Source: Zoroaster sp. YZ-2022
Taxonomy: Eukaryota > Echinodermata > Asteroidea > Forcipulatida > Zoroasteridae
Length of the DNA stretch: 64,000 nucleotides
NCBI GenBank assembly: GCA_029582265.1
Contig: CM055822.1
Span: forward strand, 38,084,679-38,148,678
Direction of reading: 5' to 3'
Shown here: positions 4,249 to 63,806 of the stretch, piece after piece
Layout of the letters: every line of letters starts with the position of its first letter
Position numbering within the stretch: the first letter of the stretch is position 1
The notes under the pieces: model-generated
The model's database searches: none
Told to the model about the DNA's origin: nothing
What the model saw: only the letters and a program-made list of their open reading frames with translations
Program-made: the position numbers and the translations under genes

Positions 4249-4481
4249 TGAGTAATTGCTCATAGGTTATTGAGTAATTGCTCATAGGTCGTTGAGTAAT
4301 TGCTCATAGGTTGCTCATAGGTCATTGAGTAATTGCTCACAAGTCATTGAGTAATTACTCATAGGTTGCTCATAGGTCGTTGAGTAATTGCTCATAGGTT
4401 GCTCATAGGTCGTTGAGTAATTGCTCACAAGTCATTGAGCAATTGCTCATGAGATCGCTCATAATACGTGAGCAATTACTG
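4249..4481. repeat. Array of nine palindromic iterons TGAGYAATTRCTCA
   Basis: Nine copies of a 14-bp dyad occur at a spacing of about 21-34 bp (near 4249, 4270, 4293, 4327, 4350, 4381, 4414, 4437, 4467). The copies at about 4350 and 4437 are perfect palindromes; the last is degenerate. The spacers repeat as AGGTCGT, AGGTTGC or AAGTCAT, and extra half-sites GCTCATAG fall between units. The array fills the 289-bp gap between ATPase and 204-aa genes. Candidates are an origin-like or packaging site, binding sites for an element-encoded protein, or a control region. Confidence 0.85.
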
Positions 4482-4529
4482 ATAATACGTTGTGTGATGT
4501 ATAAATTTTTCTATAAACACTTATATTAA

Positions 4530-5144: not shown

Positions 5145-5490
5145 AAAAGAAAAAAATCCAAACAGAGTCGCGGCTGGTAAAAAACTCGCAGAACTCAATA
5201 AAAAGAAAAAACTAGAATTAAAAAAAGATGCTCAACAAGCGTTAACGAAAAACACAACGCTGCAAGATCGCTCCACGCGCTTCTCGTCAGAGTCAGCGTC
5301 AACGAGTATAACGACGAGCTCAAACTACTATTATATCGCTATTGCTTTGTTTGTTGGAGGTTTAGGTGCTTACTACTTTTTAAGCGGTAAGCCAACAGAA
5401 AGTAAACTTGTTGAAAATGTTGGTGAAAGTACAACATTTAAAAAAAAACTTGAAACAAAAAAAGAACACGTTGTTTTTGAAATGGAATAA
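5062..5490 (+). CDS. 142-aa Lys-rich protein with one transmembrane segment
   Basis: ATG at 5062, overlapping the 204-aa gene by 83 bp. Residues 1-80 are strongly basic and Gln/Thr-rich, with NPNRVAAGKKLAELNKKKK in the middle. A Ser/Thr-rich stretch leads to a hydrophobic segment at about 91-108 (YYIAIALFVGGLGAYYF). The tail is Lys/Glu-rich. The basic N-terminal part could bind DNA while the helix anchors it in a membrane; that is inference. The 31-bp inverted repeat arm falls at about residues 70-80. Confidence 0.6.
   Translation: METNAQVQETQVVETAVQPKTVTKAPIKKEKNPNRVAAGKKLAELNKKKKLELKKDAQQALTKNTTLQDRSTRFSSESASTSITTSSNYYYIAIALFVGGLGAYYFLSGKPTESKLVENVGESTTFKKKLETKKEHVVFEME
5269..5299 (-). repeat. 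31-bp inverted repeat, arm 2
   Basis: Inverted partner of 323-353 with one mismatch. It lies inside the coding sequence of the 142-aa membrane protein, just before its transmembrane segment, in a Ser/Arg-rich stretch. Confidence 0.8.
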
Positions 5491-5518
5491 AAAAAATTAT
5501 GTTTTATAATTATAAAAC

Positions 5519-5767
5519 ATGTCTTCAATGCCTATAGATACGAAAGGAATCGCTAATTCAGCTTATCACAGCGCCGTTATGACTCTTTTAGTCGTTTTAT
5601 ACAGCATGTTGGGTGAAAAGATATTTAAAATAAAACCTGCCGATTTAGGGAAATTAGATATAAAAGATGGGTTAAAACTCACTACAGTCGTTGCCGCGGG
5701 TGGGATGACGCAAATGTGGCTAGTTAAACAAGGAATTTTGCCTAGTAATGTTATAAATTCTGAATAA
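5519..5767 (+). CDS. 82-aa small hydrophobic protein
   Basis: ATG at 5519 directly follows a TTATAATTATAAAAC dyad. Hydrophobic stretches at about residues 15-35 and 58-75 flank a Lys/Asp-rich middle containing DLGKLDIKDGLK. The ending VKQGILPSNVI recalls small proteins I have seen beside similar PolB elements. It is likely a membrane or virion-associated protein of unknown role. It sits 28 bp after the 142-aa gene and 93 bp before the integrase, on the same strand. Confidence 0.6.
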   Translation: MSSMPIDTKGIANSAYHSAVMTLLVVLYSMLGEKIFKIKPADLGKLDIKDGLKLTTVVAAGGMTQMWLVKQGILPSNVINSE

Positions 5768-5860
5768 AATATATTAAATGTTTTTAAAAATACAATGTAT
5801 TAAATATTTTTTATAAAAAAAATCATGTTTACAAAATATAATAAAAAAATGTATTTATAA
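5768..5860 (+). promoter_or_regulatory. AT-rich leader with TATA-like motif at integrase start
   Basis: The gap is almost entirely A/T and ends in TTTATAAATGG, so a TATAAA-like motif abuts the start codon. The 204-aa gene (TATATTAAATGG) and the second polymerase copy at 62176 (TAGATAAATGG) show the same arrangement. It may be an initiator-proximal promoter of the element. Confidence 0.4.
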
Positions 5861-6865
5861 ATGGATGAGAAAAGGTTATCTAATGTGTATTATAGTCCTA
5901 AAGGATACTTTAAAGGTCAAGATGCAATAAATAAACTGTCTAAAGAAACGAGAATAAATGTAAAAATAGTTAGACAGTGGATAAAAAAGCAAGCGCTGTG
6001 GCAAATTTATTTACCCTATCCTAAATATATTCCTAGACCAACTTCATCATACAGTGCGTTTGAAAAACCAAATAAAGTTCATCAAGCGGATCTATTGTTT
6101 CTTCCTCATGATGTTATCGGTAAAAGAACTTACAAGTATGCGTTAACGGTTGTAGATGAAGCTAGTAGATATAAAGCTGCAGTACTTTTAACCGATAAAA
6201 CCGCTATGATGGTTAGTAACGCGTTTGAGAAAATTTATAAACGTAGACCGTTAACTTGGCCTACACGTTTAAAAGTTGATCCTGGAAAAGAATTTATGAG
6301 TAGCGTTAACGTAATAATGAGTAAACATAATGTAAAAATTCAACGGGGTGAGGCTGGTAATCATAGAGCTCAGGGTATAGTGGAGCGGTTTAATAAAACG
6401 TTGGCTGAAAGATTATTTTCTCACCAGTACGCTAAAGAAATAACGAGTGCAGCAGTATCCGGCGTAGCAACGGTAAATAGAGAGTGGGTTAAAAGATTGC
6501 CAGCGGTTGTGAAAGAGTTAAATAATACAACAACGCGTCTTATAAATTTAAAACCAAAAGACGCGGTTAAATTGAGCAGTGTAGAACAAAATCCAGCCTC
6601 ACCCGTAAGTGTTAAAAAAGAAAAAAGAATCCCAAACAACAGTTTAATTAGGTATTTATACGCACCGGGTGAAGCTGAAAAAGATACGAGACGCAGAGCG
6701 ACCGATCCTATATGGAGTATAAAAATTTATAGAATATCTAAAACTGTTAAAGGTGTGAATCAACCTATATTGTACTATTTAGAAAAAGGCCCCGCTCGTA
6801 GTTTTGTAAGACAAGAATTACAAATTATCCCGCGAAATACACAAAATCCGCCAAAGAGATTGTAA
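5861..6865 (+). CDS. Retroviral-type (rve) integrase of the Polinton
   Basis: 334 aa, intact. The catalytic core shows D77 (KVHQADLLFLP), D140 (LKVDPGKEF) and E175 (GIVERFNKTLAERL), a DDE triad with 34 residues between the last two, as in retroviral and Polinton integrases. The N-terminal 60 residues hold an HTH-like/charged region rather than a clear HHCC zinc finger. The C-terminal part after residue 245 is basic and likely binds DNA. The enzyme would insert the element and create a short (6-bp in Polintons) target duplication. The gene ends about 65 bp from the convergent polymerase gene, separated by short tandem repeats. Confidence 0.92.
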   Translation: MDEKRLSNVYYSPKGYFKGQDAINKLSKETRINVKIVRQWIKKQALWQIYLPYPKYIPRPTSSYSAFEKPNKVHQADLLFLPHDVIGKRTYKYALTVVDEASRYKAAVLLTDKTAMMVSNAFEKIYKRRPLTWPTRLKVDPGKEFMSSVNVIMSKHNVKIQRGEAGNHRAQGIVERFNKTLAERLFSHQYAKEITSAAVSGVATVNREWVKRLPAVVKELNNTTTRLINLKPKDAVKLSSVEQNPASPVSVKKEKRIPNNSLIRYLYAPGEAEKDTRRRATDPIWSIKIYRISKTVKGVNQPILYYLEKGPARSFVRQELQIIPRNTQNPPKRL

Positions 6866-6873
6866 TATAGCGT

Positions 6874-6940
6874 GTCAATCATTCGAAATCAATCATTCGA
6901 AATCAATCATTCATAATCAATCATTCGAAATCAATCATTA
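6874..6940. repeat. Five 14-bp direct repeats in the convergent gap
   Basis: The unit AATCAATCATTCGA occurs five times with small changes between the 3' ends of integrase and polymerase. The last copy runs into the final codons of the polymerase gene (stop at 6931-6933). Possible roles are bidirectional 3'-end formation or a protein-binding array. Confidence 0.8.
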
Positions 6941-9900
6941 TTTGTTATTAAACGGTGACCGTAAGCACGAGTGTCTATTCCGTTTTCTAAAATATGCCTC
7001 TTTGTATCTAAAGGAGAGAGTGATATTTTATTTACTCGCGTTGTATATAGTCTGTGTTTTTCATGATTAATAAAACTCATATCATGATGTAGAGTATTTT
7101 TAAATGATAAAACTTGTTTATAGTGGTCGTGTTTAATCTGTTGCATTAAAACTTGTTTTTTAACTCCTTTAGCTTTTCTTATTTGTTTTTCGTCCGATAA
7201 AAGTATCGAATACATTTTAGGTCTTAAACAAACAACTTCGGAAATTACTGTTCCAGCGCACTCGTCTTTCATTTTACCGATCACTTTTTTATTATCTTCA
7301 GAATGTAAAAAATGATCTTGTTTGTAATTTGAAAAGTCGTACAAAGATTTGTTTTTACATAAATCTTTATACACATCTTGCGTTTTAATCTCGAGTAACA
7401 AGCTATCCGTGTCTGTGTAAATCAACTCACAATCGTAGTTTGTTTTTAAACGGTTGTAATAAAAATCGTACATTAAATGTTTAGATAAATCCAGTATGCT
7501 CATTCCTACGTAAATTGGCCGGTTGAGAACGAGTTTTGTCTTGTGCATGTGAATAGCTACTAGCTCATTATCGAAAATGCGCGCCTCTGCAAAATTTGGT
7601 CTCGCTATAAGCGCACGAATTAAATTGTCTTGTTTTTCATCGTTTAATCGCTTCAAATTTACGTTAACGCGATTTCGTACATTTTCCATCGTTTTACCAA
7701 AAACTGAATTGTTCATCAGTTTAAACAAATCTTTTTCAAAATCACTCTTTGCATCTTTTCTTAATCGTGTATTTAAATCAATGTATGATTTCATCCAACA
7801 TGATTCGTCAAATTCTAAAACTTTATGAATTTTAGTCAGTTTCATACCCAGCTCCAAATACAATTGTAAATTACGATAATGAACTACGTAGTTTTTCTTG
7901 TCGTATAAATTTGGTACTAATTTAACAACGTTTGGAGCCGGCTTGCCGGTTAGCAACTCGTGTTGATAGTCGCTCATCCATTCTTTCGGTACTGTCAACG
8001 ACTCTGGCGCGAGTGGAAATGCGTTGTGATCGTCGTGTAATTCTTTAACGTATTCTAAATCGACTTGTAAAATACATCCTTTGTTGTTTTTAAATCCTTC
8101 GCTCTCAAGTTGTTTTATTTGTTTTTGAGTCAACCATTTGAAATTACCAGTCGGTAAAGGTTGGCTCATCGCGTATCCGTATAAATTGTTGGCGTCTAAA
8201 TACATAATGTAACTCGACGGTTTCGATGAATCGTAGTCGTCTAAATACGCGTTGTTTGCTTTGGCGTATCGTTTGCTCGCCATACACGTTCCTCCCCGCG
8301 TGCCTTTTTCTATAAACAAATGCATGTCAATATCCGTAAACAAATCTAAAGTTTGTTTAGAATGTTTTAACAAAGCGTCCCAACTCAACCCCGGACTGGT
8401 ATAATAATTAGCCGGATCTAAACCGTACTCTCGCATGCAAGTATTACGAAAGTTTTCAAACACATCCGCCAACAAGCAAGTATCGGTGCGCACGTACAAA
8501 TCGTGATAATCTCCTAAATTTTTACAATCAAACTTGCTGTAAACATTTTTAGCGTGCTCGTATTGTTCTCTCGTAATGTGACTATCGTTTAAACTGCTAT
8601 AAAAAGACGCTTGCGCGGGAAGTTGTGTTTCTTTAAATTTTTCAAAACTGTCTACGTACTCGTAAGGATAAATGCCCTTGCTTTTAATAAGATTGAATTT
8701 TTCCAAGGAGGGTTCGAGTTTAGTCGTGATTGGAAAAAAATCGTTTGATTTTACGAGTTTGTCCAACGAAGCTAATAAAAATTGAGCGCTGTCGATAAAT
8801 CGTAGTTGATTAATACTAAAAGAAATATACTTTTCGATATTGTTTGCGATGCACGTTAAATTTCCTTCGCTACGACCGGCGGCTTGCATAATAAGATGAC
8901 TGTCGTAGCCTCGCAAATTATGAAATACGACTGGAATAAATGTTTTACCTGGTTTTAAACTTAGTCTTAAATTACAACAACTATGCGCAGCGCCTCTATA
9001 TTTTCCGGTAATGTGACAATGATCTCTCACCTTTTTACACTTGTTGTCAGAGTCTTTAAAAAACTTGTTTTCACATATCCAACACTCGTTGGCGCGGTTG
9101 TAATCTTGCTCGTCTTCTTCAGTCATGTTTAACTTTTTAATGTTGCTAAATATCGTATTAATCTTTTCTTCTTCTTTTTTTAATTCATTTAAAAAATGTT
9201 CCGCGGCATCTTTTCCCCTATAGGTAACGGGAGAGCTACTTTTTCCATCGCAACAAACAACGATGTACGAATAACCGCAAACGATGTGTTCTTGTAGTTT
9301 TTTAGTATTGGTATCGTTTTCGTCTACAATCTTTTTAATAACACTCTCAAAGTCTGCGTATATCACGAATGGAACTTTCATCTTTTTATGATAGTTGTTA
9401 AACTTTACTTTGTCGTTTTTATACTTTATTGGTAAAACAATTTTTGTTGGTTTGTCATTTATTCCTTTACACATTTCTACGTGGTTTTCTAAATGTTCTT
9501 TCGTCGAAAAACCTTGCAAACATCGTAAACAAAAATGTTTGCGGTTGTGATGGTTCGTTTGATCGTAAAGTAGTTTATTCATGTCTTTTATATAAACGTA
9601 GTGAGATTTAGCGTCTTTGTGAATCAATAATAAATTTATACGATCTAGATTTGCCGGTTGATCGCTAATTTTGTAAACTAGTATCGTTTTTAACTCGCAA
9701 CCAAAAACGTTTATCGCTATATTGTTTTGTTTTTCTACTAGCTTAATTTGAACGATAGGAGTTGGTGTTGAAATATTATTAAAATTAAAACCATCATCTA
9801 TTGGGTATTTACTCGTTCTATCAACGTGATCGGTCGCGGGAAAAAAATGAGCGCGCAAAGCCCATCGCAAACAGTTGTCATCGTTGTTTTTAACGTTGAT

Positions 9901-10680
9901 GCACGCTTTTTTATTTTTAATATAGTCGCATAGCTCGATCCAACTACCTCCTATTAATGGTTGATATTTAGAGATTCTGAGATTCATATCAATAATTCTA
10001 TCTATGAACCATCCACTACCCTCTCGAGTATATTTTTCTAAAGTTTCAGCAATTTGCGAAAAAACAACAACTAGCATATCGTCAATGTCGTTTAAATTTA
10101 ATAAAACAATTTGGTTTTTGTTGTGAAAATTTGGTTCAGCTTCGTCGGTTGAGCCACTCGGGTTTACTTTAAGTAATTTAATGCGTATGTATATCATAAA
10201 CTTTAACGCGTTAAAATCCTGTAAGTCTTTTCGCAACTTGTCAATAATCTTTAAATTTACCGCTCGCGAAAAAATGTTTAAATCTTTTCCTTTGCTGTGG
10301 TTCAACGGAACAATCATTACATGTTCGCGTAAATAACTACCACCAACGATCGTTTTATTAAATTTCAACTCTGTTTCTTTACCGTAAAACCTTTCAATAG
10401 CGGCTACGTAATCTTTTTTAATCAACTGCGCTTTTTTTCCAGAACCGCGAGTAGGAATATTTATATTTTCAACATTTATACGCCTTTTCAATTCAACCAA
10501 ATTTAATTTGTATAATGGTTTTTGTTTATAATGTTGAAAATAATTTTTTACAGCTTCGTAATAAACACGTTTATTAAATCTACCTGTTCTGTTTGAAATT
10601 ATACGAATTTGTTTCTCTCTTACAAAATCTTCTAATTTTTCCTTTGTCCATTTCGATAAAAATTGTTGTTGAGCTTGCAT
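6931..10680 (-). CDS. Protein-primed family B DNA polymerase (Polinton PolB)
   Basis: 1249 aa from the ATG at 10680 (the in-frame TTG at 10695 is not used). Order: an N-terminal DNA-binding-like region (about 1-90); a region with NNDDNCLRWAL near 265-280 and SHYVYIKD near 360; a C2H2-like finger (HFCLRCLQGF...H) near 380-400. The 3'-5' exonuclease motifs follow: Exo I YADFES near 441, Exo II HNLRGYDSH near 583, Exo III YVRTDTCLLADVF near 728. A treble-clef-like insert WICENKF...DHCHITGKYRG lies near 535-570. Polymerase motifs: A DANNLYGYAMSQ near 827, B KLMNNSVFGKTMEN near 985, C YTDTDSLL near 1085. All acidic catalytic residues are present. It would replicate the element with a protein primer. 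It converges on the integrase and has no frame break. Confidence 0.95.
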   Translation of the reverse strand: MQAQQQFLSKWTKEKLEDFVREKQIRIISNRTGRFNKRVYYEAVKNYFQHYKQKPLYKLNLVELKRRINVENINIPTRGSGKKAQLIKKDYVAAIERFYGKETELKFNKTIVGGSYLREHVMIVPLNHSKGKDLNIFSRAVNLKIIDKLRKDLQDFNALKFMIYIRIKLLKVNPSGSTDEAEPNFHNKNQIVLLNLNDIDDMLVVVFSQIAETLEKYTREGSGWFIDRIIDMNLRISKYQPLIGGSWIELCDYIKNKKACINVKNNDDNCLRWALRAHFFPATDHVDRTSKYPIDDGFNFNNISTPTPIVQIKLVEKQNNIAINVFGCELKTILVYKISDQPANLDRINLLLIHKDAKSHYVYIKDMNKLLYDQTNHHNRKHFCLRCLQGFSTKEHLENHVEMCKGINDKPTKIVLPIKYKNDKVKFNNYHKKMKVPFVIYADFESVIKKIVDENDTNTKKLQEHIVCGYSYIVVCCDGKSSSPVTYRGKDAAEHFLNELKKEEEKINTIFSNIKKLNMTEEDEQDYNRANECWICENKFFKDSDNKCKKVRDHCHITGKYRGAAHSCCNLRLSLKPGKTFIPVVFHNLRGYDSHLIMQAAGRSEGNLTCIANNIEKYISFSINQLRFIDSAQFLLASLDKLVKSNDFFPITTKLEPSLEKFNLIKSKGIYPYEYVDSFEKFKETQLPAQASFYSSLNDSHITREQYEHAKNVYSKFDCKNLGDYHDLYVRTDTCLLADVFENFRNTCMREYGLDPANYYTSPGLSWDALLKHSKQTLDLFTDIDMHLFIEKGTRGGTCMASKRYAKANNAYLDDYDSSKPSSYIMYLDANNLYGYAMSQPLPTGNFKWLTQKQIKQLESEGFKNNKGCILQVDLEYVKELHDDHNAFPLAPESLTVPKEWMSDYQHELLTGKPAPNVVKLVPNLYDKKNYVVHYRNLQLYLELGMKLTKIHKVLEFDESCWMKSYIDLNTRLRKDAKSDFEKDLFKLMNNSVFGKTMENVRNRVNVNLKRLNDEKQDNLIRALIARPNFAEARIFDNELVAIHMHKTKLVLNRPIYVGMSILDLSKHLMYDFYYNRLKTNYDCELIYTDTDSLLLEIKTQDVYKDLCKNKSLYDFSNYKQDHFLHSEDNKKVIGKMKDECAGTVISEVVCLRPKMYSILLSDEKQIRKAKGVKKQVLMQQIKHDHYKQVLSFKNTLHHDMSFINHEKHRLYTTRVNKISLSPLDTKRHILENGIDTRAYGHRLITNND

Positions 10681-10789
10681 CGTCTCTGTAATCAATATAT
10701 ATTTAGAAAATATAAACGTACAAAAAAAATTGAAAAAAACGTGAAGTATCTATTTTATGCTTAAAACATGTGGGAAACTGCTTTTTTCA

Positions 10790-10900
10790 AAACGCCCTAC
10801 TACTACCCAGAGAATTTGAAGAAAATGATTTTTTCTAAAAATGCTAGTTTTAAGAAACGCCCTACCACTACCCAGCGAATTTGAAGAAAATGATTTTTTT
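10790..10900. repeat. 65-bp tandem repeat at the polymerase-side end of the element
   Basis: Two units, 10790-10854 and 10855-10900 (second truncated), share AAACGCCCTACYACTACCCAG followed by GAATTTGAAGAAAATGATTT, with few mismatches. Read outward from the polymerase the core is G-rich, GGGTAGTGGTAGGGCG. Its place resembles the G-rich array upstream of the second polymerase copy at 61972. Confidence 0.7.
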
Positions 10901-11769
10901 GAGTAGGTGGTCCGGTTCCCTCATCTAACACACTACTACATGTTACGTTTACATCTGATCGGAGGGAATAGAAGATAAAATACATATTTTATGTGAGCAC
11001 AAACACGTTGGATTATTCATATACAGTTCTTTTATGAACGTGAGTAAACCTTAGTATACATTTAGACCCTTTTTGGTCGTTAAATTGATCACTATGCTCG
11101 TAAATTAAGATCGTTGACTTGTCACCTGTCGTTTTATTTTTAACGTTAACGTTAACGTTAACGTAATGACTAGTACTAGGCCTAGACCGTGTATTTAGGA
11201 CACCTCGATTTTCTTCTTACAAGATCCGTCCAAATCTTGTGTTTGCATTTGACACCAATGACAGAAAATCCGAAATTGACTTTTGCACTCTAGTGGTCTT
11301 TGTTCTTGAGATTAGCAATTTTTTTTTGTAATTCTGATGAGTTGTTTTGGAGAAAACGTGACATTTTTTACCGTTTTTTTTTTCACTGACAAAGTGTCGA
11401 CATCTTGTTTTTTCGTTTCAACTTTTATGACTGTAGCCTGTAGTTGTCGTTTTACCTAACTAAAGAGACTCGACGACAATAAAACACACACTCGTGCAAA
11501 AGGGTGGCTGCCTGGAAGTGTAAGACCATTAATTTTTTTTTATTCTGGTCATAATATTGGTGGTTTAAAATTAATTCAGCTGCATATTCAATTGTATTTT
11601 TTTTTGCTACCCAATTAAGACCCACCCGGCCGTATGCTGCTAGTGCTACTTACATGTAACGTTAAGTAACGTTAAGTACTAACTACTCTGTTAGTAACCA
11701 CTTGGTGAACAAAAACCAAACCCACCCACATTGCAATTTGTTTCATAAACTGATTTGATTGTGTTTCAG
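10901..11769. other. Non-coding, no gene seen; (GTTAAC)n at 11141-11165
   Basis: No reading frame or repeat family is recognised. A short perfect AACGTT/GTTAAC hexamer run lies at 11141-11165. The exact edge of the Polinton must fall in or just before this stretch. Confidence 0.5.
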
Positions 11770-25129: not shown

Positions 25130-25943
<814 letters not shown>

Positions 25944-26609
25944 TGGATTTGTAGCGCGCACATATCCACCCTGCTGGGCGCTCAAGGCGCGGAAACAAAG
26001 AAAAAAACATGAATACAAACAATATACTATGATAGCATAGGGAAATATTATGTACTGAGATACATGTACCTACAATGCAATTACAAATATGCATCATCTT
26101 TGAAGAATTGTGACATAAGATGAGTTTTAAGCATCGACTTAAATCTAGTTATACTAGTTAAATCTAGTTATACTATGACAAGATTTGAGTTTAGTTGGAA
26201 GATGATTCCAGAGTCTCGGAGCCGCGACAGAAAAAGACCTATCACCCCAGGACTCGATTTCACAAAGCACTAAGATTCATCTTAAGATGAGTTGTTAGTA
26301 TTACCATAGTGATTTGTATTGTGACATCACACTTTGCTAAGCAATTAAGATTGATACACAGTTAAGATCTATCTTAGCTCTTTGTGAAATCGGCCCCAGT
26401 TCCGTTTTGAAGTTGGTTCCTTTAGGAGTGACATGTTGCTGGAGCGCAAATTGCGTGATGGAGTGTAGACTTTAAGCAGTTCAGAAATATAAATTGCAGC
26501 AATGTTATTAAAAGATTTGTGAACAATTAGCATAAGTTTAAAAACAATTCTCTGTGAAACAGGAAGCCAGTGCAGTTCTTTCAAGATTGGCGTGATATGG
26601 CATGACTTA
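25944..26609 (-). pseudogene. LINE C copy 1, 5'-truncated, with MITE insertion
   Basis: Minus-strand C-terminal LINE remnant (LKELHWLPVSQRIVFKLMLIVHKSFNN-type, quoted in part) that also occurs at 34519-35145. It inserted into LINE A between RT and C-terminal domain. A 143-bp MITE interrupts it at 26251. Also a short duplication TTAAATCTAGTTATACTAG near 26150. Confidence 0.75.
26251..26393. mobile_element. 143-bp MITE with empty site in the same window
   Basis: CGATTTCACAAAG...CTTTGTGAAATCG ends are inverted repeats, flanked by CCCCAG at 26245-26250 and 26394-26399. The paralogous LINE C copy at about 34835 has a single CCCCAG and no insert, which proves the insertion. Confidence 0.85.
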
Positions 26610-31403: not shown

Positions 31404-31476
31404 TGGCTGATGCCGGACTCGAACCCGCGACCTCTCGATTACCGTACGAGCGCTCTACCAACTGAACTAACCAGCC
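31404..31476 (-). tRNA. tRNA-like sequence, copy 1 (probably tRNA-derived repeat)
   Basis: Folds as a tRNA: acceptor GGCTGGT/ATCAGCC, D-arm GTTC/GAGC, T-loop TTCGAGT, A- and B-box matches. The anticodon loop ACGGTAA lacks U33 and its stem has a mismatch. The T-stem has one mismatch. It is therefore more likely a Pol III promoter of a repeat than a functional tRNA. Confidence 0.5.
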
Positions 31477-31724
31477 CCTATGTTGGTGGGCGGTCCACTT
31501 ATGCCAATTATCTATTGCTCTATGGGGCCAGGTCAGAGGCCAAACCATATCTGCCGAGTAGCCAGGGATCAAGCCCCGGTCAGATGCAAACAACACAGGT
31601 AACGGCAGTAGCGGGGATCACACAATTAACGGGACACAAGCCTTTTATGTGGTTGTACACAAAGTAGATTTATATGGAGAAACTGACCTGAAATATTATA
31701 AACGGTTCGCGAGCAAAGAAAAAT

Positions 31725-31797
31725 TGGCTGATGCCGGACTCGAACCCGCGACCTCTCGATTACCGTACGAGCGCTCTACCAACTGAACTAACCAGCC
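31725..31797 (-). tRNA. tRNA-like sequence, copy 2
   Basis: Identical in structure to copy 1, one 321-bp period downstream, with the same defective anticodon loop. Confidence 0.5.
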
Positions 31798-32045
31798 CCT
31801 ATGTTGGTGGGCGGTCCACTTATGCCAATTATCCATTGCTCTATGGGGCCAGGTCAGAGGCCAAACCATATCTGCCGAGTAGCCAGGGATCAAGCCCAGG
31901 TCAGATGCAAACAACCCGGGTAACGGCAGTAGCGGGGATCACACAATTAACGGGACACAAGCCTTTTATGTGGTTGTACACAAAGTAGATTTATATGGAG
32001 AAACTGACCTGAAATATTATAAACGGTTCGCGAGCAAAGAAAAAT

Positions 32046-32118
32046 TGGCTGATGCCGGACTCGAACCCGCGACCTCTCGATTACCGTACGAGCGCTCTAC
32101 CAACTGAGCTAACCAGCC
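32046..32118 (-). tRNA. tRNA-like sequence, copy 3
   Basis: Third copy, one base different in the D-arm (GAGCT instead of GAACT in plus reading). The unit is truncated right after it. Confidence 0.5.
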
Positions 32119-32124: not shown

Positions 32125-33080
32125 ATATAAACTCCTCAAAAAAAGTTCGGAAACTCAGGTTTGACTGACGATTTCTCTCTTGTTACCAACTCATTTTCCT
32201 TGCATTTGGTATCATTGGAAAGCCCTTTTATTCCTCTTTACAATGATGTGCCATTTGTTATGATTACGCAATTGGGGGATGTGCAACACAGCTGAATATG
32301 GGGGTGGGTGTAAAGTGAAATGTTGCAAAATGCATTGCTATTGTCAAAAGTGTATTGACTCTTGCTGTTATAGGAGTTGTTTGGAAGATGGATGTGTCTT
32401 GAATGATTGTCTGCTTACTAACCAATATTTAAAGGTTGTAGGCCATAAATGTGCGGGAAAAGTTCAGAAATCCACATGGCCTGTCACAATAAATTGCCTC
32501 CGGGATAGCAACTCTGTTGTTAATGTGGGTGAGTTTCAAACAGAGTAAAAGAATTTGTCATTTTCTGCACTCAAACGCCCAGTAATTCTCCATCAGTATC
32601 AACAAATCTCTCTCACAGTACAATGAAACTCTCTATCACTAACAACATAAAAAACAAGATGTAAGGAAAGTCTTTTTTTCTGATTTAATCATTGAACAGC
32701 TTCCTTCATTGAACAAACAATGTTAAGTCAAGAGCCTTAGTAGCGGGTGGACGATCCGAATGCAGCCACAACAGCCTGGCACATCCTCATACTGGTCACG
32801 AGCCGGGTCACACGTTGCTGTGGAATGGCGTCCCATTCATCGGTCAGAGCACTGTATGACAATAGCAATGCATTTTGCAACATTTCACTTTACACCCACC
32901 CCCATATTCAGCTGTGCTGCACATCCCCCAATTGCGTAATCATAACAAATGGCACATCATTGTAAAGAGGAATAACAGGGCTTTCCAATGATACCAAATG
33001 CAAGGAAAATGAGTTGGTAACAAGAGAGAAATCGTCAGTCAAACTGGAGTTTCCGAACTTTTTTTGAGGAGTTTTATATA
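32125..33080. mobile_element. Tc1/mariner-type relic with about 225-bp inverted repeats
   Basis: Arms 32125-32350 and 32854-33080 are near-identical inverted repeats starting TATATAAACTCCTCAAAA. Between them only the C-terminal end of a Tc1-type transposase remains. TA-rich flanks fit a TA target. Confidence 0.8.
32737..32855 (-). pseudogene. Tc1 transposase C-terminal remnant
   Basis: Minus strand reads LTDEWDAIPQQRVTRLVTSM, then MCQAVVAAFGSSTRY and a stop. This matches the usual Tc1 ending (EW..IPQ..I..L..SM, ..AVI.A.GGHTRY). The catalytic domain is deleted. Confidence 0.75.
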
Positions 33081-33605
33081 AATTAAATCGGGAGGGTGGC
33101 CTTAGCTTTCGATCCAATCTGGACCTTCTTCAGAGGCTTTGACAAAGTACAACATAAAAACTCATCCATTTATAGGGAGAAGGGAAAGCAAAGGATCATG
33201 GGGCGGGATCCAAAAAAGGCGGGAAAATAGTGACCAATTAAAGATAAGCATCAGTCTAGAAAAAGCCAATAGGAGTATCAGAAGTGAACAAAGGGGGATT
33301 ATTGAGCCACACAATAAGTAGATGTGGCAGCTTATGGTGAAGCTAGGGTAAAGGGGGGATTATTGAGCCACACAATAGGTAGAGGTGGCAGCTTTTAGTA
33401 AAGCTGGCATAAACATAGGACAATACACAAAGGGATACGACAACAAAAAAGTGTTTTTTTTAAGCCTTACAAATTGAGCAGTTGGTGTGTGGGTGTAAAT
33501 AGCTAAATTAAAATAGTCCTATGAGAGACAGTTGGAAAAATGTATAAGTATACAAGATAAGATAAAGCAACAGGTTAAAGCAAATACCTGAAAATAGAAC
33601 AGGTT

Positions 33606-33637
<32 letters not shown>
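33081..33637. other. Non-coding
   Basis: No supported gene. A short near-duplicate (GGGGGATTATTGAGCCACACAATA, in part, at about 33294 and 33354) and a (TA)n at 33611-33637 are present. Confidence 0.5.
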
Positions 33638-34462
33638 CACTCCTCAAAATAAAATAAGGGTCAAAAGTATTTTTGTGAAAAATGTTGACCAAGTCAGGAC
33701 ATAGAAACATTTTTAGTAAGGGTAATGGGCTAAAAGTTGCTCTGCAACATTTTAAGCATTTTTCACATGGTTTGCATGTCTATTGGCTTAGAAACTGACA
33801 GATCATGTGACAAGACACAAAAATGCTGATAACAGGTTCATGATGTCGCAATCAAGTTTGGCACATCTGCTTTATTTTTCTTCAAGACTTAATGAGATTC
33901 CCCACACATAATCAATAGGATTCTGCACTTGATAAAGTAAAGTTAAACAGTGGGTTAACCAGCATGGAAGCTGTAGGGATGATGGGACCCCTTGAGCCCC
34001 CTCCCTATTTTGAAGGCTTTCCCACCAGTTGATATTCTCTCCCTGTCATAAACTTTGGCAAATCAACATTACTTCTGTATGTTTTAAGACTTAAAGTTAA
34101 TGTCAGTATGAGGTTGCATGACCCCTTACTCGCACACATTCCGTACAACGCCTCCTCATGGACTGTACTGTGTACCCAGTGTTGAATCCTGTTGACAACA
34201 TCTCAGTAACACCCCACAAAAGAAATAAAGCAGATGTGCCAAACTTGATTGCGACATCATGAACCTGTTATCAGCATTTTTGTGTCTTGTCACATGATCT
34301 GTCAGTTTCTAAGCCAATAGACATGCAAACCATGTGAAAAGTGCTTAAAATGTTGCAGAGCAACCTTTAGCCCATTACCCTTACTAAAAATGTTTCTATG
34401 TCCTGACTTAGTCAACATTTTTCACAAAAATACTTTTGACCCTTATTTTATTTTGAGGAGTG
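33638..34462. mobile_element. Long-TIR Tc1-like non-autonomous element
   Basis: 825 bp. Arms of about 245 bp (33638-33882 and 34219-34462) begin CACTCCTCAAAATAAAATAA and are near-perfect inverted repeats, flanked by TA on both sides. The interior is non-coding. Ends resemble those of the neighbouring relic at 32125. Confidence 0.85.
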
Positions 34463-34518
34463 TACATTTTGTCTGAAGTCGTTTTAAAGAAAAATGTAAT
34501 AATTCCCAGTTCGATTTA

Positions 34519-35689: not shown

Positions 35690-36940
35690 ATCAACATCAC
35701 ACAAGAACGAAGACTTCCTACCCAGGTATTCCCCGCCTACAACATCCATCCAATAAAATATTAACAATAGTGGGTATGGGGGAATTCCTGAATCTCTCAG
35801 TACGCAGAGCCACACTAGGTGAGACATTAGAGCGAGGTAAGAAATCCCGGTATAATTCTGATTTAAGAAGACTTTTACCAAAATTGAGAATGAGATTTTT
35901 CCTACGTGAATGCAGTGAGGGCAGGTTGGTAATCCACAGGGCATTTTCATAACAAACATAATCATCATGTAGAATAATTCTAAGTGCCCTTTTCTGAACT
36001 CTTTCTATAGAATTACATTGTTTGGTAGTTACAGACCCATGCCAAACAGGAGCAGCATACTCAATAGTAGGTCGATACATATACAGTTATGAGATCAGCA
36101 ATGGCAACTTCTGCCTTTTTTTTTAATTTTTAATTTTTTAATTTTTTAGAATACATAAAGAGAACAGCCTTCCAGAGGCTTTAGACACAATATCCTTGGT
36201 GTTAAGGTCCCACTTCAAGTCATTCTGAATATGGACACCAAGCAACCGCATTATGATTCACAACATCTAAAATAGTGCCATTAAGATGAAATTGGATAGA
36301 CATTTCAGGCGTTCTTTTCTTAAGAAAGTTAATAGACATAACATGACATTTTGAAGGTTTAGGTACCATATTGTTAAGCTTACACCAAATATTGAGTTCA
36401 TCCAGTAAGTTTTGCAAAATAGGTCTGTCATTACTACCAACGACCTCTCCGAGAGTGAGGTCATTGACATACTTCCAACGCCTACAACACTCGACAGGCG
36501 CATCATTAATAAGAACCAACAACAGGATGGGACCGAGAAGTGTTCATTGGGGAACACCACAGGTAATCAGAAGATAATCAGAAATACACCCTGAGAACTT
36601 GGTGCACATGATGCGGCCCATCAAAAAGCTGGAGACGATGAGAATAACAGATGACCTGACCCCTAAATCAATTAGTTTGTTAATGACAACATTATGATAA
36701 ACGCGATCAAACGCTTTCATAAAATCCACAGCACAAATGTTCACATAATTGTCCACATTTTTCGGCATCTCGGATAATAGTGTCAATTAAGCTGATAAGA
36801 TAATGAGTGGCAGAAGACTTCTTTCTACTGCCAAATTGGCGAGAGTCAAATTTAGTCTTGATATCCTGTAGAATCCATTGCACAATAAACTATTCAAAAA
36901 TTCTTGCCAAGAACGGGGTGAGTGAAATGGGTCGAAGATC
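35690..36940 (-). pseudogene. LINE D: reverse transcriptase core and C-terminal part
   Basis: Minus strand. RPISLTP, CAVDFMKAFDRVYHN and CGVPQ (36541-36934) lead to LLVLINDAP and KYVNDLTL (36220-36540). The C-terminal YRPTIEYAAPVWHGS and RVQKRALRII follow (35718-36080). The usual YxDD box reads YVND, and several stops and frameshifts are present, including a stop soon after RPISLTP. Its upstream half is found at 40655 onward, beyond the 3.7-kb insertion. Confidence 0.8.
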
Positions 36941-38093
36941 AGTAGTATGTGTGGCGCATCACAAGCAGGTTTGTGAAGGAGCAGTGTGCAATTGGTTTGT
37001 GAAGGAGCAAATTGCACACTGCTCCTTCACAAACCAGCTTGTGATGCGCCACCTCAATCCCTCCTCCCTGGCGCGCGCGGGCACGTCTGGGCGCGCGCGT
37101 GACTCCCTCCACACAAAATACTGCACACAAAATACTTACTCCCTCCACACAAAATACTGCACACACAAACTGCACACAAAATACACACAATACTCCATCC
37201 ACTGTGGTGGAGGGAGTAGTGCGCAAGCGCAGCATGCATATTGATGATTTCGGGCAAGTTGAGACACGTCTGGGCGCGCGCGTGGAGGTGTGCAGTTTGT
37301 GTGGTGGAGGGAGTAGTGCGCAAGCGCAGCATGCATATTGATGATTTCGGGCAAGTTGAGACATAATGACACAAAAATATAAACACAAAAGAACACATTC
37401 AACTCTTTTTATTATTTATTTATTCACTTTTTTTAAATTCACGTAACAATGAATGGATTACCGATACAAATCACTATATAAAAGAAAACTCAAAAATTAT
37501 TATAACTCAAAGTATTAATAATTCCCAAGAAAAATGCACATTAAACAAGAATCCCTATATAAAAACAATGTAAATCAAATATCTATTGGACTTAGCTTTG
37601 TCAATTTTGTACACGTTATATGGTGATTTTGGGGAGAGGAAATGATGAGGGATGTATAGGACTACGGAAATCAATAGATAGTCAAGTGAATTATAAGGAA
37701 TATAACATAATTAAAAGAAAGTCAACTCACACTGAATTTCACAGGGATTAAGAGTCTACACTCCTTGCAATAAATGTAACACGATAGATTTACACATCTC
37801 ACTCGTTCATACCGAGCACATGGGACGAAGTGTTTTGAATTATATTCAATGAACTGCTCAGGAACTTGGAATTTCGTTGCGTGTACTGTCAACGAAACCG
37901 TAAATGAAGTCGGATATTAGGGCTCATAATACAGTTGTCTATCTTACATGAAACAACGGTCCGCTTTAGAATGTCAGGCCTGTAGTTCACAATACACTGT
38001 CTATTTAAAGATGAATAGAAAGTCACCCAAAAGTTTAGAACCCATGCAGAGGCACTCATTTTCTTCGAAATTAAGTTGTCACTGCCCTTGATG
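36941..38093 (+). repeat. Left terminal inverted repeat
   Basis: Very similar in reverse complement to 39528-40654. Outer part: 98-bp hairpin, GC-rich GCGCGCGCGGGCACGTCTGG blocks, repeated CACACAAAATACTG units. A 60-bp segment with GGAGGGAGTAGTGCGCAAGC is present twice (about 37207 and 37307). The inner 700 bp are AT-rich. Confidence 0.92.
36953..37050. repeat. 98-bp terminal hairpin in left TIR
   Basis: GGCGCATCACAAGC pairs with GCTTGTGATGCGCC. The stem continues with GGTTTGTGAAGGAGCAGTGT pairing to its complement; a few unpaired bases form the loop. It starts 12 bp from the element end. Confidence 0.88.
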
Positions 38094-38280
38094 TCACTGC
38101 CCTTGATGAGCAAATGAGCAAATGAGCAAATGAGTAGTGAAAAGAGCAAATGAGCAGCGAAATGAGCAATTGAGTAGCGAAATGAGCAAATGAGTAGCGA
38201 AATGAGCAAATGAGTAGTGAAAAGAGCAAATGAGCAGCGAAATGAGCAAATGAATAAATGAGTAGCGAAATGGGTAGTTG
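38094..38280. repeat. AATGAGCAAATGAGTAGCGA minisatellite upstream of the zinc-finger gene
   Basis: About eight imperfect units of AAATGAGCA / AATGAGTAGCG lie between the left TIR and the TATA box. They could be promoter-proximal binding sites. Confidence 0.75.
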
Positions 38281-38286
38281 TAGGCC

Positions 38287-38296
38287 TATATATAAA
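38287..38296 (+). promoter_or_regulatory. TATA box of the zinc-finger gene
   Basis: TATATATAAA lies about 50 bp before the ATG at 38347. The spacing allows a short leader containing TCAGTCGGAGATTAAG. Confidence 0.65.
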
Positions 38297-38346
38297 CTAT
38301 TTCTTCCGTTTCTTGTCAGTCGGAGATTAAGCATCAGAGATTCAAC

Positions 38347-39408
38347 ATGAATGTTATTTCTGCTGTCAAACCCCATGCTTGTCACCAGTGCGGCAAAAGC
38401 TTTGGACGGAGATATAACCTACGGAGGCATGCAGAACATGTACATAATGAAGAGAAATCTAAAATGGATGAAGTTGACGATGAAATTAAAGCTATCCAAT
38501 CTGACAATTCTGACATCGATAATTCTGAACCCGATGTTAAAAAGCATAGATTTGAAGATTCGGAAATAGAAACTTGTGAAACTGAATCTACGCAGGATGA
38601 AGACGAAGATTTCGAGGAAGATGATTCAGAATCCGATACGGATAACCTACGGAGGCATGCAGAACATGTACATAATGAAGAGAAATCTAAAATGGATGAA
38701 GTTGACGATGATTCTGAAATTAAAGCTATCCAATCTGACAATTCTGACATCGATAATTCTGAACCCGATGTTAAAAAGCGTAGATTTGAAGATTCGGAAA
38801 TAGAAACTTGTGAAACTGAATCTACGCAGGATGAAGACGAAGATTTCGAGGAAGATGATTCAGAATCCGATACGGAGGTGGAATATGACGAATCATCGGA
38901 AGAGGATGAGTCTAGTTCTGAACTGGAAGACAATGCCACTTTTCGAGACTGGTTGGAAGAGGCTAAAGTGATGTGGTGTGAAAAATATGAAAAGTACGTC
39001 AACGGGGGTATGAGTGAAGATCAAGCCAAGGAAAAAGCCAATAGGAAAACCCTTTGGGCAGTCAAGCGAATCTTTTTCAACAAATACAAGGATTTTTTGT
39101 CAAGTTACCTACATCTGAAAGATAATGGGACTCATCAGGATATTGCGGAAGATCTCGAAGAAAAAGTAAATAAAGGCATGGAAGTAAACAAAGCTCTGAA
39201 CAGAGTAATGCCTAAACACCATACCAAATTTGACGGACTACTACTTCAACTAAATGAGGATGAAGAGAACGAGGATGAGAGAACGAGGATGAAGAGAACG
39301 AGGATGAAGAGAACGAGGATGAAGAGAACGAGGATGAAGAGAACGAGGATGAAGAGAACGAGGAAGAGTGATAATGAAAGACCAGATGTTTCAGAAAGAC
39401 TACTGTAA
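38347..39408 (+). CDS. Element-encoded C2H2 zinc-finger protein with acidic repeats
   Basis: 353 aa. One C2H2 finger (CHQCGKSFGRRYNLRRHAEHVH) lies near residues 12-33. An acidic, Ser-rich region follows, containing a 228-bp tandem duplication (38416 and 38644) that repeats the second half of the finger (NLRRHAEHVH) without its cysteines. A conserved-looking module follows (about 200-300): FRDWLEEAKVMWCEKYEKYV, KANRKTLWAVKRIFFNKYKDF, ALNRVMPKHHTKFDGLL. I have the impression that similar modules recur in multi-copy invertebrate proteins, but know no function. The last 50 residues are a frameshifted repeat (RTRMKR units), see separate entry. TATA box and AATAAA flank the gene and it is the only gene of the TIR element. 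Confidence 0.8.
   Translation: MNVISAVKPHACHQCGKSFGRRYNLRRHAEHVHNEEKSKMDEVDDEIKAIQSDNSDIDNSEPDVKKHRFEDSEIETCETESTQDEDEDFEEDDSESDTDNLRRHAEHVHNEEKSKMDEVDDDSEIKAIQSDNSDIDNSEPDVKKRRFEDSEIETCETESTQDEDEDFEEDDSESDTEVEYDESSEEDESSSELEDNATFRDWLEEAKVMWCEKYEKYVNGGMSEDQAKEKANRKTLWAVKRIFFNKYKDFLSSYLHLKDNGTHQDIAEDLEEKVNKGMEVNKALNRVMPKHHTKFDGLLLQLNEDEENEDERTRMKRTRMKRTRMKRTRMKRTRMKRTRKSDNERPDVSERLL
39257..39370 (+). repeat. 18-bp coding minisatellite with a 1-base deletion
   Basis: GAGGATGAAGAGAAC units. Near 39279 one A is missing (GATGAGAGAAC instead of GATGAAGAGAAC), which moves the frame from acidic NEDEE to basic RTRMKR units. In the other frame the acidic repeats would end at a TGA at about 39369. Confidence 0.85.
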
Positions 39409-39449
39409 TTAAAAAAAAAACATCTATAATAGTGGGGTTTTTTGGTAGG

Positions 39450-39455
39450 AATAAA
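39450..39455 (+). terminator. Poly(A) signal AATAAA of the zinc-finger gene
   Basis: AATAAA 42 bp after the stop, followed by an A-run, before the right TIR. Confidence 0.6.
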
Positions 39456-39527
39456 AAAAATCGATAAAATAACCACCTCTGTTAGTCTTACAGTAATCCT
39501 TTATGGTTATTTTACACTATTACGTTA

Positions 39528-40654
39528 CATCAAGGGCAGTGACAACTTAATTTCGAAGAAAATGAATGCCTCTGCATGGGTTCTAAACTTCTTTAAATAG
39601 ACAGTGTATTGTGAACTACAGGCCTGACATTCTAAAGCGGGCCGTTGTTTCATGTAAGATAGACAACTGTATTATGAGCCCTAATATCCGACTTCATTTA
39701 CGGTTTCGTTGACAGTACACGCAACGAAATTCCAAGTTCCTGAGCAGTTCATTGAAGCGGAAATATAATTCAAAACACTTCGTCCCATGTGCTCGGTATG
39801 AACGAGTGAGATGTGTAAATCTATCGTGTTACATTTATTGCAAGGAGTGTAGACTCTTAATCCCTGTAAAATTCAGTGTGAGTTGACTTTCTTTTAATTC
39901 TGTTATATTCCTTATAATTCACTTGACTATCTATTGATTTCCCTAGTCCTATACATCCCTCATCATTTCCTCTCCCCAAAATCACCATATAACGTGTACA
40001 AAATTGACAAAGCTAAGTCCAATAGATATTTGATTTACATTGTTTTTATATAGGGATTCTTGTTTAATGTGCATTTTTCTTGGGAATTATTAATACTTTG
40101 AGTTATAATGTTTGAGTTTTCTTTTATATAGTGATTTGTATCGGTAATCCATTCATTGTTACGTGAATTTAAAAAAAGTGAATAAAAAAATAATAAAAAG
40201 AGTTGAATGTGTTCTTTTGTGTTTATATTTTTGTGTCATTATGTCTCAACTTGCCCGAAAACATCAATATGCATGCTGCGCTTGCGCACTACTCCCTCCA
40301 CCACACAAACTGCACACCTCCACGCGCGCGCCCAGACGTGTCTCAACTTGCCCGAAATCATCAATATGCATGCTGCGCTTGCGCACTACTCCCTCCACCA
40401 CAGTGGATGGAGTATTGTGTGTATTTTGTGTGCAGTTTGTGTGTGCAGTATTTTGTGTGGAGGGAGTAAGTATTTTGTGTGCAGTATTTTGTGTGGAGGG
40501 AGTCACGCGCGCCCAGACGTGCCCGCGCGCGCCAGGGAGGACACGGCGCATCACAAGCTGGTTTGTGAAGGAGCAGTGTGCAATTTGCTCCTTCACAAAC
40601 CAATTGCACACTGCTCCTTCACAAACCTGCTTGTGATGCGCCACACATACTACT
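39528..40654 (-). repeat. Right terminal inverted repeat
   Basis: Mirror of the left arm, with scattered point differences and a deletion of about 25 bp near 39590 relative to it. The high similarity implies a recent insertion or arm homogenisation. Confidence 0.92.
40545..40642. repeat. 98-bp terminal hairpin in right TIR
   Basis: Mirror copy of the left terminal hairpin, also ending 12 bp from the element end. Confidence 0.88.
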
Positions 40655-41310
40655 AAGATCGTTTAAAGCGCAAGCATTCTGTTCCTTGGGTATAAGAACA
40701 GCCAATTTCTTCCAGCTGTCAGGGAAAACTCATTGTTGTAACGATTCATTGAAAATGTCCATGACAGGTTGAGCTAATTCAGGAACAAATTCCTTCAATA
40801 GGCGGGCAGGAGGATCATCAGAGTGACCAGCTTTCCTGGGATTGAGCATGGTTAACTTTTTCTCAAATTCCCAAACGTGAATGACTGGAGGGGGATCAGA
40901 AGCAGGTAGATAAGCTGGAAGTTGATGCAAGTCCAAAGCAGTTAGACCATTACAAATTGAAGCAAAATTTTCATTTATCTTTACAGCCGCTTCAGAATTA
41001 GACATCCCAGGAAGTGAGAAATGATTAGTTTTCTTGTTTAGATTACACAAACGTTTGACACCTTTATGTCACTTTGCAGGGTTATTAGCTTTCAAACAAG
41101 CCAAAGACTCATTATATATAGTATGCAGATTTGGCTTATCTAATACCAGCTTGAACCTGATTCCGAAATTTACGCCACTCATCAGATTTTCCATATTTTT
41201 CACAAAGTTTCTGTCTAGTATCCAAACGCCTTCTACCTTTAGGAGTCATCCAAGGTTTGTCAGCTACACGCTTCCGTCTTGTTACAAAAGGAAATTTCAC
41301 GTTGAAGGCA
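40655..41310 (-). pseudogene. LINE D: region N-terminal to the RT
   Basis: Minus strand. VADKPWMTPKGRRRLDTRQK (around 41220-41265), FRNQVQAGIR, then LNPRKAGHSDDPPARLLKEF and DIFNESLQQ, as expected just before the RT. Stops are present. Confidence 0.75.
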
Positions 41311-44771: not shown

Positions 44772-54884
<10,113 letters not shown>

Positions 54885-59752: not shown

Positions 59753-59833
59753 GGCGACTCGGGCGGGATTCGAACCCAAGAATTCCTGCTTACTAGTGCA
59801 GACGTCTTAACCTCTCGACCACCGAGCTTGCCC
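59753..59833 (-). tRNA. tRNA-like SINE head 1
   Basis: A and B boxes (GGTGGTCGAGAGG, GGTTCGAATCC) and cloverleaf-like stems; anticodon loop ACTAGTAA has eight bases. T-arm intact but the region before it is mutated (AATTCTTGG). Probably not functional. Confidence 0.4.
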
Positions 59834-59979
59834 AGCTATAGCAGCGGGTTCTGCGATATATATAGATTGGTGAAATTCTTGCGTCGGGAGATAAACAATT
59901 GATTTAATTTTGCCCTACACCGACGTGTGTATAGCACTGTATGCTCAGTGCTTTCCGAGTACCTGTGAAAAACTACACA

Positions 59980-60060
59980 GGCGACTCGGGCGGGATTCGA
60001 ACCCACGACCTCCTGCTTACTAGTGCAGACGTCTTAACCTCTTGACCACCGAGCTTGCCC
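59980..60060 (-). tRNA. tRNA-like SINE head 2
   Basis: As copy 1; TCTGC/GCAGG anticodon stem with the same eight-base loop, and intact T-arm GTGGGTTCGAATCCCGC. Likely the Pol III promoter of a SINE. Confidence 0.45.
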
Positions 60061-62131: not shown

Positions 62132-62175
62132 ATTTTTTTTAGATATTATCTCATTTTATCTAGTAGTATAGATAA

Positions 62176-63806
62176 ATGGAGAGTATGTCTGTAAGGTATT
62201 TATCACAATGGACATTAAGAGAATTGAAAGAATTTGCGCGACTTGATAGACCTATTTTATTAGTGCGAGATAGAAGAACGAATAGAATAAATAAACGATC
62301 TTATTACGAGGGTGTAAAAAGATATATAAAGCATAAACCATTATCTAAATTAAAAATAAGAGAACTTGCAAGTGTTATACAAGTTGAAAATATTCCGCTG
62401 ACAGAAGAGGGGAGCGGACAGGGAGGAAGATATTTGCGAAAAGATTAGTATAATATCATCAAAAAGTGGTATAGATCAGGTGATGTAGAATTTGATGAAC
62501 CACCGATTAATGGTGGAAGGTATTTGCGAACGCGAACGATGACCTTGCCAGTAGGTCATAAAAGAGAGCTTGATTTAAAAAAAATTAGCGAGGGCGCTAA
62601 AGCAAAGATAATCGAAAAGTTGACTTTAGATTTAGAAGAATTAGGAGCATTTAAGTTTATGGTATACATATGGGTTAAATTTGATAAAATTTAGGATGAT
62701 GGTACGATTATTTATACAACGCTTCCTTGTCATCATCAGAGGCAAATAGTTTTATTTAATATGGATAATATTGAAGTTGAATTAGCTGAGGCTTTTGCTA
62801 GAATTGTTGAAGTTGTAGAAAGATGTACAAATAACGGCTCTGGATGGAGGATAGCTCGTATTGTACAATTAGAAATTAGAATTTCAAACTATAGGCCTTT
62901 GAGGGGTGGTTCTTATATCAAGCTACCTGGTTACATAAAAAATAAAAAAGCATGCATCAATGTAAAAAACAAAGACGATAATTGTTTGCGATGGGCGCTT
63001 CGTAGCGCTCTTTTTCCTAGTAGGAAAAATTCGGATAGAACGTGTAAATACCCGATAGAGGACGGTTTAAATTTTGATGGAATTGAGGCTCCTACACCAA
63101 TAAGTCAGATTAAGCAAGTTGAGAAACAAAATGCTATTGCAATAAACGTTTATGGTTTGGAAAGAAATTCCTTCGTACCTTACTACATTCATGAGGGAGA
63201 TCATGAGAAGAAACGTATACGTTTATTATTGATCCAAGAAGAGGAAGAAGAAGGAACTAGATCTCACTACGTTTGGGTCAAGGATTTAAATAAATTATTT
63301 TTTGATCAAACAAATAATAGAAATAAAAAGCACTTTTGTGAACTTTGTTTGTGTGGTTTTAGTAGAGAATATTTACTTCAAGATCACATTCCAAATTGTA
63401 GAGGTGTAAGTGATAGGCCGAGAGCATACAAGTTGCCTATAAAGGGTAAAAATGACACGCTAAAAATTTTAAATTTTCATAAAAAGATGAAAGTTCCTTT
63501 TACTATATACGCAGACTTTGAAGCAATTTTAGTTCCAAAGAGTAAAAATCTAGGTGCCAAAACTAAAACAACACACGAACACATTCCATGCGGCTATTCG
63601 TATATTATCATTAGATGCAACGGTGATTTTTTTTTCATCGTGTACATACAGAGGTAAAGATGCCGTGCAACACTTTTTAAATAAACTGGCGGATGAAGTA
63701 AAAAAGATTAACGTGATATTTGAGAACCCTAAAAAAATGATTATGACTGAAGAAAATGAAGAAGATTTCAAAATGCAAAACAGTGTTGGATATGTGAAAA
63801 TTATTG
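62176..63806 (+). pseudogene. Second Polinton PolB, 5' fragment, broken
   Basis: Covers the equivalent of the first roughly 520 residues of the polymerase at 6931-10680, clearly diverged from it. Seen: QWTLRELKEFARL, KNKDDNCLRWALRSALFP, SHYVWVKDLNKLFF, the finger HFCELCLCGFSREY, and Exo I YADFEA. In-frame stops occur near 62446 and 62692 and a frameshift near 63635; the frame is then cut at 63805 by the second G-rich array. The polymerase domain is absent. Confidence 0.88.

Follow-up and report, generated by a model that had tools for sequence, protein, structure and literature searches.

The 64,000-nt window analyzed here (CM055822.1, or C7, positions 38084679–38148678) comes from the genome of Zoroaster sp. 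YZ-2022 (Asteroidea; 1.0 Gb, 616 contigs) and contains a compact mobile element with a single zinc-finger gene, referred to below as the satellite. It extends from position 36941 to 40654 (3,714 bp), is bracketed by an exact AAGATC duplication and has no further copy within the 64 kb. Its features are the following:

36935–36940: left target site duplication AAGATC, in sequence a perfect pair with the right one
36941–38097, + strand: left terminal inverted repeat, starting AGTAGTATGTGTG
36951–37052: imperfect palindrome with 43-nt arms, immediately internal to the left end
38100–38280, + strand: tandem array of ~20-bp units rich in TGAG[CT]AA, directly 5′ of the TATA box
38289–38296, + strand: TATA box, TATATAAA
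38347–39408, + strand: sole gene, 353 codons, with a C2H2 finger, an acidic linker and a helical module
38374–38445, + strand: C2H2 zinc finger, residues 10–33 (Pfam, under Pfam's own cut-off)
38469–38876, + strand: acidic linker duplicated internally and in frame, as two 174-nt copies at a distance of 234 nt
38926–39261, + strand: conserved C-terminal helical module, residues 194–305
39450–39455, + strand: AATAAA polyadenylation signal
39524–40654, − strand: right terminal inverted repeat, finishing CACATACTACT
40655–40660: right target site duplication AAGATC, from the sequence

The two arms are 95.5% identical over 1,164 columns; upon realignment, they differ by five gaps and by 12 mismatches in 1,124 aligned bases. 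The element is inserted in a remnant on the opposite strand, which we take from its sequence to be a non-long-terminal-repeat reverse transcriptase and whose pieces flank both sides. The original prediction, an annotation of the same DNA, had described a 6-bp AAGATC duplication, AG...CT ends and long arms of about 1.13 kb. The first two are exact to the base, and such arms are indeed present at 36941–38097 and 39524–40654. It had also described one gene with its own TATA box and polyadenylation signal, no recognizable transposase, polymerase or integrase, and a conserved-looking C-terminal module, all of which agree with the gene structure listed above and with the searches below.

A Pfam scan of the 353-aa protein at E ≤ 1 returned five zinc-finger families, each under its own cut-off, with PF00096 as the top match (E 8.9e-4, residues 10–33), and no transposase, polymerase or integrase; no replication enzyme was found in the Pfam scan of the window copy. 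A first search with the module gave 36 relatives, and a profile search, in which only the best 7,991 candidates were scored, gave 100 proteins, 36 of which were already in the first search and the last few of which match little outside the finger. The relatives include annotated echinoderm proteins from Patiria miniata (P0072) and Amphiura filiformis (P0096). The finger, the acidic linker and the module recur throughout an alignment of 37 rows (the 36 relatives and the window protein), in which 15 residues are invariant, all of them at or after residue 194. For the module, the structure prediction suggested earlier was made with AlphaFold and yielded a confident, all-helical fold of five helices (predicted local distance difference test score 92.5), which matched no solved structure under E 0.001. 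A module-only profile comparison with a wider family (P0100, P0104–P0109) gave a collinear match with a probability of 94 and an E value of 1.3e-7. Members of this family have an acidic linker, a collinear helical module and, in most cases, a finger, and the five that were aligned are 15–26% identical to the module of the window.

The window copy is, by three characters, a derived one, since its linker duplication is absent from the 36 aligned relatives, its module is 12 bases shorter than in most copies, and its tail reads differently from the acidic tails of the relatives. Within this genome, the ratio of nonsynonymous to synonymous substitution rates (dN/dS) in the module is 0.33 over 38 rows, computed without stops, gaps or columns that are insertions with respect to the window copy. 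Many of these rows are dead copies, and some are not independent of one another, as the window copy is counted twice (L149 being its own place) and so are the two genes of one insertion (L139/L150). With these limits, the value suggests past selection on the protein.

A genome search for further copies and their target duplications, as proposed in the original prediction, revealed many copies. The left arm gave 125 matches (best 40 of 1,611 candidates scored) and the protein 198 (best 115 of 3,529 candidates scored). Twenty loci of 10 kb, picked non-randomly from the best matches to the terminal inverted repeat and labeled L, were fetched. Both ends were seen in 14 of them and only one end in six. 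In L160, a single end is present, recognized by a looser motif. In 11 of the 14 loci, the outer 6-mers are identical, forming perfect duplications that are all different: CAAACC, CATAGC, GACAGT, AATTGG, AACTGG, ATCGTT, GAGGGG, AGCGCA, TAGGCC, CAGGGT and AAAACA. Together with the window copy, this makes 12 bounded elements; the bounded copies span 2,484 to 5,820 bp (L133 contains 500 unread bases). Because 6-mers paired at random from these 20 loci agree in only 0.05% of cases, these duplications are not due to chance. The first end finder required AGTAGT and at least 30 of 40 ungapped matches between the ends, a limit outside which L131 falls. A second finder, free of the AGTAGT requirement, considered 27,764 pairs of exact inverted 12-mers and retained 17 with identical non-palindromic outer 6-mers. 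Eleven of these are the satellite ends, one pair per locus and including L131 with its perfect CATAGC duplication, and six are others. When the flanking sequences of the bounded elements other than L131 (11 of 12) were compared, they showed no mutual similarity at E 1e-10, so that these are separate insertions. The longest terminal arms reported in other copies measure between 80 bp in L140 and 2.3 kb in L132, compared with 1.1 kb in the window copy. Two divergent gene copies are present in the satellites of L130, L132, L137, L142 and L144, and the arms of some satellites reach into gene sequence.

The 12 bounded elements have 24 ends, all of which start with AGTAGTAT[AG]TG and 22 of which start with AGTAGTAT[AG]TGTG, both ends of L131 being AGTAGTATATGAG. 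For vertebrate Mavericks, the commonest end is given as (AGT)2...(ACT)2, accompanied by 6-bp duplications, and the inverted repeats of intact elements measure 46–1,447 bp (PMC8097293). The satellites share all three characters: the end motif, or one like it, occurs in the window copy and in the 11 fetched copies, 6-bp duplications flank the window copy and those in 11 of the 20 fetched loci, and terminal inverted repeats are present, the window arms lying inside the published range. Given that AGTAGT...ACTACT with a 6-bp duplication is already a published Maverick/Polinton signature (PMC8097293) and that the hexamer is common to four Polintons resident in this genome, the new transposon class that the original prediction had entertained is unsupported and is not needed. 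Its other suggestion, a satellite equipped with a DNA-binding protein of its own, agrees well with the copies, the 6-bp duplications, the lack of any enzyme gene in the searches made and the conserved finger and helical module, from which DNA binding is predicted. In the literature searched, we found no description of a gene-carrying satellite with Polinton-type ends.

The ends and duplications also bear on whether an unrecognized transposase of another superfamily could be responsible, with 6-bp duplications and similar ends by coincidence and the zinc-finger gene as an accessory or as an unrecognized recombinase. IS3EU and GingerRoot elements make 6-bp duplications but end in TA..TA, or occasionally TG..CA in GingerRoot (PMC10045372), whereas the satellite ends are AG..CT. 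Ginger ends are TGT (PMC2836005); neither the TGTNR ends of Ginger1 and Ginger2 nor their 4-bp duplications (4 or 5 bp in Ginger2) are found in the satellite. The Maverick-like AGTAGT...ACTACT ends (PMC8097293) point away from this explanation as well, and none of the searches run with the small, all-helical module gave a match to a nuclease or an integrase, although the latter is weak evidence. What speaks for a foreign transposase is that the resident Polintons appear to have 5-bp duplications and that no individual helper could be named; on balance, we consider it unlikely.

The left part of the same window is occupied by a Polinton that the original prediction had overlooked, 26 kb from the satellite, as follows:

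1–10937: Polinton of 16,441 bp, its right two thirds (the left end is at L157:4497), a candidate helper type
2310–3587: putative Polinton major capsid gene, named for its place only
3620–4240, + strand: Polinton packaging-type ATPase (PF04665, E 8.9e-12)
4226–4500: array located between genes of the Polinton, with many TGAG[CT]AA sites and similar to the satellite array
5861–6865, + strand: Polinton integrase (PF00665 rve, E 2.2e-8)
6931–10695, − strand: presumed Polinton family B DNA polymerase, 1254 aa

The terminal repeats of this Polinton are 288 bp long and 98% identical, with the end hexamers AGTAGT and ACTACT. Its 1254-aa open reading frame (ORF) is presumably the family B polymerase, which we base on the motifs DANNLYG and YTDTDS; it gave no Pfam polymerase match and no match in the PDB. 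Putative helper-enzyme genes of Polinton type are plentiful in the genome, since many integrase rows were scored (the best 120 of 3,980 candidates) and 113 of these 120 rows are free of stops. The Polinton load of the genome thus seems large and young, as judged by these best-scoring rows alone. A second Polinton polymerase fragment, broken by stops, lies at 62160–63800 with similar G-rich repeat blocks on either side, and its upstream region is duplicated to its right.

Comparison with the resident Polintons yields observations that weigh against a Polinton-type origin of the satellites. If their ends are taken as AGTAGT/ACTACT, all four resident Polintons in which both ends were read show 5-bp duplications (ACATG, GCAAT, AGAGT and AGGGC), compared with 6 bp in all 12 satellites. 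In three of these four Polintons, the next base is identical to the terminal T, so that a 6-bp reading by a shared T is possible there; in one it fails. At the left end of the third Polinton, there are three AGT units, and the start was chosen to match the right end. The terminal hexamer is common to the satellites and the four Polintons, and the first 10 nt, AGTAGTATGT, are the same in two resident Polintons and the window satellite, with six to seven nt common to the other two; past these first 6–10 nt, Polinton and satellite ends diverge. No resident Polinton with the longer end motif of the satellites came to light, although no genome-wide pattern search underlies this negative. Moreover, duplications are absent from L130, L142 and L146 despite the presence of both end motifs. 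Polinton-type machinery is hence well supported, whereas an individual helper family is not identified.

The two ends of one element resemble each other far more than ends of different elements do. Over nt 19–45, the left and right ends of the same element are on average 96.7% identical, compared with 64.6% between elements (12 elements; lowest same-element identity 0.83, in L131), and the observed sum was reached in none of 10,000 random re-pairings. Without L131, the values are 0.980 within and 0.658 between the remaining 11 elements. The difference persists over nt 46–145 (0.849 within, 0.650 between; 0 of 10,000 re-pairings). Among the loci lacking a duplication, the ends are alike in L130 and L146 and unlike in L142. 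This pattern would imply that one end is copied from the other, as in a linear replicon with terminal repeats, or that gene conversion is frequent. Independent drift of the two ends was also considered; it would not yield within-element identity so far above that between elements.

Another conceivable explanation is a self-replicating element with parvovirus-like hairpin ends. The palindrome at the left end of the window copy does form a strong predicted DNA fold (−54.8 kcal/mol, z −14.8), and one of similar strength occurs in L134. Since the nine other bounded copies tested (L131 was not among them) lack a comparably strong fold, the terminal palindrome is not a feature of the family, and this largely refutes the hairpin explanation. 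Furthermore, both ends of the window copy have the same orientation, and the Pfam scan mentioned above found no replication enzyme. Such an origin is therefore highly improbable.

When six ORFs of the window's Polinton were used as queries against the 20 fetched loci, none matched anywhere in the 11 loci with bounded copies, and in none of the 20 did a match fall inside a satellite. As integrase, polymerase and capsid or packaging genes were found neither in the window copy nor, with these six ORFs, in the fetched bounded copies, the satellite is not an autonomous Polinton. It also differs in size (3.7 kb, compared with 12.7–24.6 kb for Polintons) and in content, having one zinc-finger gene where no integrase, polymerase, ATPase or capsid gene was found. 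The original prediction had named as counter-evidence larger copies in which the same arms enclose a standard transposase; none appeared inside the satellites with the six ORFs, although elements above 10 kb and other transposases could escape this search.

The element could instead be a mere relic left by internal deletion of a Polinton, with a residual or captured gene that does nothing for it. Such a relic would share the Polinton-type ends and the short length, and zinc-finger genes termed 'Ziftr' are reported for some adintoviruses (PMC11071296). The satellite gene resembles Ziftr, by description alone, as a zinc-finger gene tied to Polinton-like viruses; the adintovirus gene, however, sits in a full virus genome (PMC11071296). 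Against a relic, none of the six Polinton ORFs has left a match in the bounded copies, and the gene recurs both in the fetched copies and in other sources, with its 15 invariant residues and a dN/dS of 0.33. A relic is thus rather improbable, even more so than a foreign transposase.

Polinton-ORF matches were detected in two of the 20 loci, L130 (C12:27232849-27242848) and L145 (C5:15579047-15589046, with L159 and L158), in both cases outside the satellite. Two satellites are therefore nested in Polintons, that of L130 within the ATPase gene. There, the ATPase match ends exactly at the right end of the satellite (7892) with capsid-gene matches beyond it, integrase and polymerase matches lie on the other side, and the remaining part expected of the ATPase gave no match. 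Insertion followed by loss would account for the missing duplication at this locus. The satellite of L145 is flanked by polymerase matches on one side and, on the other, by additional ORFs of a second Polinton, which runs from L159 to L158 and whose repeats are 95.6% identical over 389 aligned columns. One ORF in L145 is presumably a Tc1-like transposase.

Collectively, the Polinton-type ends, the 6-bp duplications, the many copies, the alike end pairs, the one conserved gene, the absence of any enzyme gene from the searches and the presence of resident Polintons and integrases argue that the element is probably a non-autonomous satellite of Polinton/Maverick type, moved and replicated in trans and equipped with its own conserved zinc-finger protein. 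A Polinton integrase would recognize the AGTAGT ends and insert the linear element, and a Polinton DNA polymerase or host repair might copy it, with one end serving as the template for both. The single gene would give rise to a predicted DNA-binding protein composed of a finger, an acidic activator-like linker and a helical module for self-association or contact with a partner. This protein may act on the array in front of its own promoter and so regulate the element; perhaps it also acts on the Polinton array, which would tie its expression to the helper.

The last possibility derives from the resemblance between the satellite array (38100–38280) and the Polinton array (4226–4500). When 1,265 sliding windows were compared, 7-mer coverage peaked in the one over the Polinton array (157 of 275 bases; the best elsewhere is 61), and the observed coverage of 0.578 was reached in 0, 0 and 8 of 5,000 permutations of the array units. 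Of the 38 TGAG[CT]AA sites in the 64 kb, the Polinton array contains 20 and that of the satellite 7, and 3–79 sites are present in 7 of the 11 fetched bounded copies. In addition, the relative P0075 has an N-terminal extension, STHFTTHF..., that reads as an array with ACTCATTT would if translated. The array likeness is suggestive of regulatory cross-talk between satellite and Polinton. Several points count against it, however: the other 4 of the 11 copies lack TGAG[CT]AA, the arrays are tandem and their site counts hence not independent, the longest-common-word test is weak by itself, and the array is found in one Polinton alone, the three pieces of the second Polinton having scattered sites.

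Virophage-type satellites are dependent passengers of larger virus-like elements, and the element described here may be likened to them in this respect, although no capsid genes were found in it. It is conceivable, if still tentative, that an echinoderm-wide family of satellites parasitizes Polintons, retaining Polinton-type ends so as to be inserted and copied by them, and that its zinc-finger protein senses or rewires helper expression via TGAG[CT]AA arrays located both in front of its own gene and within the helper, much as virophage-like satellites do with giant viruses. The finding would bear on the question of whether animal Polintons act as live, virus-like agents. If confirmed, a satellite with its own gene and young copies would be an independent witness of Polinton machinery working in trans and would exemplify hyperparasitism between virus-like elements of animals. 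It would also offer a small native substrate with known ends (2.5–5.8 kb) for activity tests of the integrase and polymerase, and the zinc-finger protein with its arrays would provide a tangible starting point for learning what activates such elements.

The remainder of the window contains several other repeats. Three tRNA-Thr genes lie within a 321-bp tandem repeat at 31404–32118, and two tRNA-like copies with incomplete anticodon calls form a repeat of 227–228 bp at 59753–60055. Two more pairs of long inverted repeats, of 218 and 250 nt and 98% complementary, are located at 32129–34467, and long microsatellite-like repeats occupy 25586–26008 and 47613–48250.

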